A program made the position numbers and the translations under genes. A DNA stretch of 64,000 nt from contig NZ_CP047942.1 in the NCBI RefSeq assembly GCF_014279835.1, positions 1,674,001 through 1,738,000 on the forward strand. The letters run 5' to 3'. The DNA comes from Synechococcus sp. MVIR-18-1 (GTDB lineage Bacteria; Cyanobacteriota; Cyanobacteriia; PCC-6307; Cyanobiaceae). The notes under the pieces were generated by a model that worked only from the letters and a program-made list of their open reading frames with translations, ran no database searches and had not been told where the DNA came from. This document shows positions 53,541 to 59,186 of this stretch, piece after piece (within the stretch, counting starts at the first letter, position 1; each line of letters opens with the position of its first letter).

Positions 53541-54518
53541 ATGAAGAACCAACCGTGCTGGCCCGAAGCAGACGCAAAGCTGTTCTTGCAAGCCATGCAC
53601 GAAGTGGGCTCCATGGGAGGCATTGCAGACGTTGAGCCCATCACCATCGAAATGATGGAATCCATTCAGAACTTTGTTCTGAAGTCGTCCGTCGACCTGA
53701 ACCATCTAAAGGGCATCGCACCAGCAGATTTATCAGAAAAGATATCCGATCAAAAGAAACGCGAACAACTCCTTCAAATCCTCATTCTTCTTCCTTATGT
53801 TGACATGAAGGTCGACCCGAGGATGGTAGAAACTGTAGATAAATTCGCAGAACATCTAGAGATTCATCCCAATACAATCAAAGACTTACATCGAGTTCGA
53901 GACAACCACTTAAAGCGACTTTTACTCGATTATGGACGCAGGAGCTTAGGCGAATTCCTAGGCCTTGATTCAGCACCTAAAGTGATCAAAGGTGTCATCA
54001 CAATGTTCCATCAAGCCATCGGAGATAGGGGTGTTTCTGAGCGCTACCAGCAATTAGAGTCCTATCCAGAAGGCAGCCTCGGCCACACTGTGTTCCATTG
54101 GTACCGGGATAGAAATTGGGCACTACCAGGAGAGAAAAAAAGCACATCTGAATTGCTCTTAAATCACGATTGCTGCCACATTCTTGGAGGATTTAATACG
54201 GATGTCCAAGGCGAAATGAATGTAGCAGCCTTTCAGGCTGGGCTTTTTGATGATGGCTTTGGATTTGAATCACTTCTAGAGGTTATTCTCGACTTTCACT
54301 TGGGAAAAGCTTTCAGCACTGTTGGAGATATCATTCCACCCTCAACGGGAGCCTTTCACCCTAACGATGCAATGGCAGGATATGAAAAGGGTTTAGCTTG
54401 CAATGTAAACCTCGTTAGGGATTTAAACTTCTGGTCAGAAGCAGAACAATCCGTTTTCACTCTCAGAGAGAAGTTTAATATTCCAGCCTCCTCTGGCCCT
54501 CTTTTGATTAAGCCCTAA
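53541..54518 (+). CDS. TerB-like/COQ4-like protein
   Basis: 325 residues. The N-terminal ~130 residues resemble a TerB-like helical domain (REQLLQILILLPYVDMKVDP; VDKFAEHLEIHPNT). The C-terminal half carries HDCCH (H209, D210, H213) followed 11 residues later by E225, the HDxxHx11E zinc motif of COQ4, with supporting GGFNTDVQGEMNVAAFQAGL and a downstream HP. COQ4 was recently shown to replace the carboxyl carbon of ubiquinone precursors by hydroxyl. Cyanobacteria make plastoquinone, so the role here is open; it could act in quinone metabolism or in an unrelated reaction. It is expressed from the region shared with the L,D-transpeptidase. Confidence 0.75.
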   Translation: MKNQPCWPEADAKLFLQAMHEVGSMGGIADVEPITIEMMESIQNFVLKSSVDLNHLKGIAPADLSEKISDQKKREQLLQILILLPYVDMKVDPRMVETVDKFAEHLEIHPNTIKDLHRVRDNHLKRLLLDYGRRSLGEFLGLDSAPKVIKGVITMFHQAIGDRGVSERYQQLESYPEGSLGHTVFHWYRDRNWALPGEKKSTSELLLNHDCCHILGGFNTDVQGEMNVAAFQAGLFDDGFGFESLLEVILDFHLGKAFSTVGDIIPPSTGAFHPNDAMAGYEKGLACNVNLVRDLNFWSEAEQSVFTLREKFNIPASSGPLLIKP

Positions 54519-54536: not shown

Positions 54537-54561
54537 AAAAGCGGGGTATCACCCCGCTTTT
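54537..54561. terminator. Bidirectional intrinsic terminator
   Basis: A 7-bp GC-rich stem GCGGGGT/ACCCCGC (54541-54547 with 54551-54557) is flanked by AAAA on the left and TTTT on the right. It lies between two convergent genes (the COQ4-like gene and the second pyrophosphatase) and could stop transcription from both sides. Confidence 0.85.
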
Positions 54562-58121: not shown

Positions 58122-59186
58122 ATGTCAGCGACTGCTTCCAACCAAAGGATTCAGACCAACGGAACTCCTGTCACTATTCTCACCGGATTTCTAGGCGCAG
58201 GAAAGACCACTCTTCTCAATCACATTCTCAGCAATCAAGACGGTCTCAAAACAGCTGTTCTGGTCAACGAGTTCGGAGAGATTGGCATCGACAACGATCT
58301 TGTGGTGAGCACCAGCGCAGACATGGTGGAACTCAGCAATGGCTGCATCTGCTGCACGATTAACGGCGAATTGCTGGAAGCTGTCGATCGCATCTTGAAG
58401 CGCCCCGAACCTTTGGACTATTTGGTTGTGGAGACGACAGGTCTTGCCGATCCACTTCCCGTAGCCATGACATTTCTAGGCAGTGAATTGCGAGATCAGA
58501 CCAGGTTGGATTCAATCATCACCCTGGTTGATGCTGAAAATTGCAATGCTCGCGTTTTTGAAAGTGAAGTGGGTCGCTCCCAAATTATTTACGGAGACAT
58601 TCTTCTTCTCAACAAAACAGATTTGGTATCCACAGAGCGTGTCAAAGAATTAGAAGAAAGCCTGCGCAGTATCAAAAAAGACGCTCGCATCCTTCATTCC
58701 GTAAAGGGAGATGTTCCCCTGCCTCTCTTGATGAGTGTTGGATTATTTGAGAGTGATCGCGTGGCGACCAAAGCCGATCACGACCATCACGATCACGGGC
58801 ACGATCACGCGCATGCGCACCACGACCACGACCACGCGCATCATGACCATGCGCACCACGACCATGCGGACCATCTCGACATCGAGGGATACACCTCCCT
58901 CTCATTCAGTAGCGATGGACCCTTCTCGCTCCGTAAATTTCAAAACTTCCTCGACAATCAATTGCCCGAGAGCGTCTTTCGCGCCAAGGGCATCCTTTGG
59001 TTTAACGAAAGTGAAAAGCGCCATGTTTTTCACTTAGCTGGCAAACGCTTCTCTATCGATGACAGCGACTGGGATGGCGAACGCAAAAATCAACTGGTGT
59101 TGATCGGTCAGGAGATGGATCACAGCACCCTCAGGAGGCAACTCCAAGCCTGTGTCGCCAAAGATGCTGGCCAAGGCTTTTCCTAA
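58122..59186 (+). CDS. CobW/COG0523 GTPase with histidine-rich metal-binding loop
   Basis: 354 residues. P-loop GFLGAGKTTLLNHIL, NEFGEIGIDNDLV, the CxCC metal motif in SNGCICCTINGEL and NKTD identify a COG0523 GTPase. Between the G domain and the C-terminal CobW_C domain is a His/Asp repeat (about residues 218-248, e.g. DHDHHDHGHDHAHAHHDH). Such proteins are metal chaperones for zinc, cobalt or other ions. The region is also visible as repetitive DNA at about 58780-58875. The pterin dehydratase gene precedes it by 8 bases. Metal unknown. Confidence 0.92.
   Translation: MSATASNQRIQTNGTPVTILTGFLGAGKTTLLNHILSNQDGLKTAVLVNEFGEIGIDNDLVVSTSADMVELSNGCICCTINGELLEAVDRILKRPEPLDYLVVETTGLADPLPVAMTFLGSELRDQTRLDSIITLVDAENCNARVFESEVGRSQIIYGDILLLNKTDLVSTERVKELEESLRSIKKDARILHSVKGDVPLPLLMSVGLFESDRVATKADHDHHDHGHDHAHAHHDHDHAHHDHAHHDHADHLDIEGYTSLSFSSDGPFSLRKFQNFLDNQLPESVFRAKGILWFNESEKRHVFHLAGKRFSIDDSDWDGERKNQLVLIGQEMDHSTLRRQLQACVAKDAGQGFS

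Follow-up and report, generated by a model that had tools for sequence, protein, structure and literature searches.

The gene at positions 53541..54518 (+) of the window, by which we mean the whole stretch of 64,000 nucleotides from Synechococcus sp. MVIR-18-1 that was analysed, encodes a protein in which a TerB-like helical domain is fused to a divergent Coq4-like one. We hold this two-domain assignment to be nearly certain. Judged from sequence comparison, the product is most likely an accessory, metal-dependent protein that acts on a lipid-tailed, perhaps aromatic, substrate. Taken as a whole, we give this reading a probability of about 0.45. The protein is probably not an enzyme of the plastoquinone pathway.

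The source genome is of the marine Synechococcus type and consists of one contig of 2.45 Mb. The reading frame starts with ATG and encodes 325 amino acids. By its arrangement the gene is monocistronic: a YkuD gene lies upstream in divergent orientation and a pyrophosphatase gene lies downstream in convergent orientation. An inverted repeat, AGCGGGG-TATCA-CCCCGCT followed by T, can be read directly off the sequence at 54540..54561 (+) and is likely a terminator common to the fusion gene and the convergent pyrophosphatase gene. The protein lacks transmembrane helices (hydropathy over 19 residues peaks at 0.99), so contact with the membrane, if there is any, would be peripheral.

The first-pass annotation had pointed to the string HDCCH at residues 209-213 with a glutamate at 225, which together form the HDxxH-x11-E motif of COQ4. 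Translation of the 325-residue frame bears this out: it reads H209, D210, C211, C212 and H213, and then E225 (54165..54215, +). The string by itself is weak evidence. Given the amino-acid composition of the window, chance alone would produce it 1.3 times in 800,000 residues, about once per proteome, and it is found once among the 498 open stretches of the window.

It is conservation that makes the case. All 36 aligned fusion relatives keep HDxxH and 35 keep E225; the remaining protein has a Glu one residue nearer. H209, D210, H213, G224 and E225 are invariant in 16 fusion proteins aligned over their full length; the other members of this alignment are between 18 and 88% identical to the window protein. 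The same 16 proteins all carry D130 and R133 of a D130-x-x-R133 motif in the linker between the two domains (53928..53939, +), and D130 is present in 32 of the 36. L180 and G181 (36/36) belong to a PEGSLG motif at residues 176-181 (54066..54083, +), which matches the 'PeGtLG' of Coq4 and also occurs in the standalone Coq4 alignment.

The metal motif lines up with HDIWH-x11-E of Alr8543 in every column. In the structure of that protein (6E12), H120, D121, H124 and E136 act at two Mg ions (PMC9774615), and H209, D210, H213 and E225 correspond to these metal-site residues by alignment. An AlphaFold2 model from a two-sequence alignment (the window protein with an 88%-identical orthologue) has a mean pLDDT of 38.9 and is unusable, so the case for the four residues lying together comes from the alignment to 6E12. 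We think it quite probable that the metal site is in use.

The C-terminal domain is homologous to Coq4 at the superfamily level. Coq4 is the sole Pfam match of the window protein (residues 209-232, E 0.01, 15.6 bits vs a cut-off of 22.9), and a search of NCBIfam gave no match. A profile made from ordinary cyanobacterial Coq4 only scores the window protein at 31.9 bits (E 3.9e-9) and each of the 35 tested fusion proteins at 22-41 bits. The best of several hundred decoys, which were shuffled, reversed and neighbouring proteins, reaches 4.5 bits. When the fusion-family profile is run against all PDB sequences, the top two are 6e12 (Alr8543, E 5.9e-8) and 3msq (E 1.2e-7). Pairwise HHalign comparisons of the C-terminal part with standalone Coq4 give 98.0% and 99.1%, vs 0.4% for the reversed control. 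Among the fusion proteins, L108 exceeds the Pfam Coq4 cut-off (26.2 bits) and has TerB as its other match (E 0.004), while TerB and Coq4 are the top two Pfam matches of L113. We place the Coq4-like domain at residues 168-316 (54042..54488, +), following the Coq4-only profile and the alignment of the family profile to the C-termini of Alr8543 and standalone Coq4; the window protein by itself aligns to Coq4 only across residues 168-233.

The likeness to Coq4 of PF05019 (Alr8543 of Nostoc, PDB 6E12, formerly 3KB4; PDB 3MSQ) extends over the PeGtLG motif, HDxxH-x11-E, the GE-x5-AF context and the C-terminal helical region. Unlike Alr8543 and 3MSQ, the fusion carries about 130 extra residues at the N-terminus, the TerB-like domain. 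It is about 20% identical to this family, lies below the Pfam cut-off and is set apart from ordinary Coq4 by a long, well-supported branch. In the tree a single branch with support 100/99 parts the fusion domains from the ordinary ones, to be read with caution because the branches are long. Cyanobacteria also have short Coq4-like proteins of about 175 aa (e.g. L121, L125), which share the metal motif and have a C-terminal region that the fusion profile matches, but they lack the TerB-like domain. When they are added to the tree most of them group with standalone Coq4; the fusion side is then supported by no more than 60/94, because the short protein L013 groups beside the fusions. Six short proteins (L121, L122, L123, L125, L126, L128; about 175-250 aa) form a subfamily with the signature RRKQLHDxxHVLTGY that is distinct from ordinary Coq4 and from the fusion.

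The TerB-like character of the N-terminal helical domain, residues 15-117 (53583..53891, +), was likewise claimed in the first-pass annotation and holds at the level of the family. Pfam TerB does not match the window protein by itself, and it matches 8 of 17 N-terminal domains of the family (best E 4.7e-5). Pairwise HHalign of the N-terminal family against standalone cyanobacterial TerB gives 93.5% and, in a second comparison, 95.9% (E 6e-9); reversed and cross-domain controls give 0.2-0.4%. A cyanobacterial TerB profile scores the window protein at 11.2 bits; no decoy reaches this score apart from one neighbouring protein, which is a true TerB. Furthermore, positions 7-116 of the fusion profile pick out cyanobacterial proteins of ~240 residues that Pfam independently calls TerB (e.g. 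in G008, G036, G062, G074). The window protein itself stays below both Pfam cut-offs. It is therefore a divergent relative and not a filed COQ4.

As in TerB (PF05099), the N-terminal region is helical, matches the profile at family level and has an 'aDG'-type turn (D88 in the window protein). Unlike TerB, the window protein remains below the cut-off, no ter operon is nearby, and the turn Asp is not retained in the fusion paralogue groups of L002/L011 and L003. The best PDB match of the N-terminal profile (residues about 30-109) is a weak one to DotZ of the Legionella secretion coupling complex (6sz9, E 0.019), which may reflect chance or a common helical fold. One relative, G189, encodes a standalone TerB protein (L144:13540-14052, -; 35.5 bits) ~3 kb from its second fusion gene. 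Our literature search, which covered part of the literature, found no description of a TerB-COQ4 fusion; hence the architecture is likely, rather than demonstrably, new.

The source genome carries three fusion paralogues, the window copy, C1:1887724-1888677(-) and C1:1329446-1330432(+), together with three ordinary Coq4 proteins that pass the Pfam cut-off. Among 242 genomes sampled from the class, six-frame searches found full-length fusions in about 18-20, spread across several families. Orthologues of the window gene are nearly confined to a single genus. At E 1e-3 it has matches in 13 of 291 phylum genomes. Within the family, 251 genomes yield orthologue matches in 15, namely in 14 of the 16 sampled from its own genus and in one other. 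Ten of the own-genus copies, including the window's own, are intact and at least 65% identical, two are divergent (37%) and two are broken. The decayed copies in G139 (L018) and G189 (L143) and at the MAG locus L035 all contain stops and frameshifts; that of G139 additionally carries a series of 'EMKV' repeats.

Where it is intact, the gene evolves under purifying selection. The dN/dS ratio is 0.08-0.10 between the window gene and its 88%-identical orthologues, and 0.06-0.15 among close-orthologue pairs with usable dS, a range that leaves out L034. Low dN/dS combined with broken or missing copies shows that the gene is useful where present and dispensable. We found no relatives of the fusion in viral contigs, no matches to it in phages and plasmids, and no match for the protein in the PADLOC defence library and PHROGs.

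Gene neighbourhood does not lead to a function. In relatives of the same genus the position is kept, with hemC/YkuD and ppa on either side. At other loci, fusion relatives adjoin Hsp33, glyQ, a NACHT-associated gene, a Rieske oxygenase or trpF. Because the neighbours of relatives elsewhere are unrelated, we accept none as a functional partner. No quinone, prenyl or lipid gene consistently flanks the window gene or its relatives.

How might such a protein work? Animal COQ4 is a Zn-dependent C1 decarboxylase that is inactivated by mutation of the H/H and D/E motif residues (PMC7615680), human COQ4 has been reported as an oxidative decarboxylase (PMC11495197), and Alr8543 binds lipid in crystals (PMC9774615). 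The fusion shares with eukaryotic COQ4 the four metal-site residues required for activity; unlike it, the fusion resides in a cyanobacterial host that has UbiD, and its gene is dispensable. A relative with an intact motif is expected to bind metal and may carry out COQ4-related chemistry. We envisage an accessory protein, soluble or peripherally bound to the membrane, whose Coq4-type domain would hold a divalent metal through H209, D210, H213 and E225 and would accommodate a lipid-tailed substrate between its helices. The reaction could plausibly be a metal-assisted (oxidative) decarboxylation or a ring modification, as in eukaryotic COQ4, and the TerB-like domain would most likely dock or regulate. 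That the protein catalyses a reaction on a lipid-tailed substrate at all has, in our estimate, a little less than an even chance.

A more specific version gives the family a metal-dependent reaction of the COQ4 type, either (oxidative) decarboxylation or ring hydroxylation, whose substrate would be a non-quinone or unusual membrane metabolite and which the TerB-like domain would gate. We consider this version rather unlikely as it stands; if true, COQ4 chemistry would be employed outside ubiquinone synthesis. Cyanobacteria, to our knowledge, do not make ubiquinone, yet Coq4-type proteins are widespread among them. They must therefore serve some other purpose in these organisms, and a distinct fusion family that has three paralogues in one small genome and is under purifying selection yet dispensable offers a tractable gene for finding it.

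The first-pass annotation saw in the gene a candidate for a step, missing or parallel, in the synthesis of plastoquinone, with an unrelated reaction as its fallback. Such a step could be, for example, the decarboxylation at C1 or the hydroxylation of the solanesylated ring. As far as we know, all oxygenic cyanobacteria need plastoquinone. A gene that is nearly restricted to one genus, and whose distribution across the phylum and family samples is as sparse as described above, does not fit such a need, and neither do the broken copies in three relatives. Three quarters of the cyanobacteria sampled also lack ordinary Coq4 (present in 45/194). The proposal does have points in its favour: COQ4 acts on C1 of the analogous ubiquinone precursor (PMC7615680, PMC11495197), and the cyanobacterial plastoquinone pathway is incompletely assigned (PMC7133116). 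However, UbiD, to which the decarboxylation step of plastoquinone synthesis is assigned in Synechocystis (sll0936; PMC7133116), is encoded in the source genome and in 56 of 61 complete relatives. The other five, small-genome picocyanobacteria, are G311 and four members of genus g2 with genomes of 1.6-1.7 Mb and 100% completeness (G107, G161, G163, G169); they lack UbiD at E 10, and all five also lack Coq4 at E 1. Coq4 is therefore not a substitute for UbiD there. With quinone genes not being consistent neighbours either, the plastoquinone proposal is not borne out and we regard it as very unlikely. The name COQ4 is no ground for assigning plastoquinone steps.

Three further readings compete with the preferred one. 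Chance occurrence of the motif in an unrelated helical protein would agree with a string expected about once per proteome and with a Pfam score under the cut-off, but it is contradicted by the decoy-controlled profile results, the PDB matches and the unbroken conservation of HDxxH, which leave it hardly credible. A non-enzymatic role deserves more weight. The domain could be a metal-stabilised module for lipid binding or scaffolding, which the TerB-like domain ties to a stress or metal-response complex. For a long time yeast Coq4 was regarded as organising the Q complex (see the review in PMC11495197), the lipid in the Alr8543 crystals would suit such a module (PMC9774615), and a stress role would go with a TerB-like domain and an accessory distribution. 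Yet distant members keep all four metal ligands in a domain that is otherwise largely altered, a pattern that catalysis explains no less well than scaffolding, and we consider the scaffold possible but doubtful. The protein might also make or modify a small accessory metabolite, be it a natural product, a signalling lipid or an antioxidant lipid, with paralogues serving different substrates. Three divergent fusion paralogues along with three standalone Coq4 in one genome would suit this idea, as would the Coq4 gene reported in a RiPP/polyketide-type cluster of marine Synechococcus (PMC10783134) and the Rieske-domain oxygenase gene that adjoins fusion gene L147. The window copy, however, stands alone, outside any biosynthetic cluster, and a metabolite role of this kind appears unlikely to us. 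We retain the accessory, metal-dependent protein with a lipid-tailed substrate as the preferred reading.

Two further observations concern genes other than the fusion. At 58122-59186 of the window, 3.6 kb downstream, lies a gene for a CobW/GTPase-type protein with a His/Asp-rich stretch, likely a metal chaperone, whose position is kept in relatives. Moreover, a phage contig (L149:4887-5609; IMG/VR IMGVR_UViG_3300017728_000199) encodes a standalone Coq4 above the Pfam cut-off, alongside a tail protein and other phage families. No relatives of this phage-contig Coq4 were found in 50,697 phage records; in the tree it is the sister of one of the source genome's own Coq4 proteins, L029.
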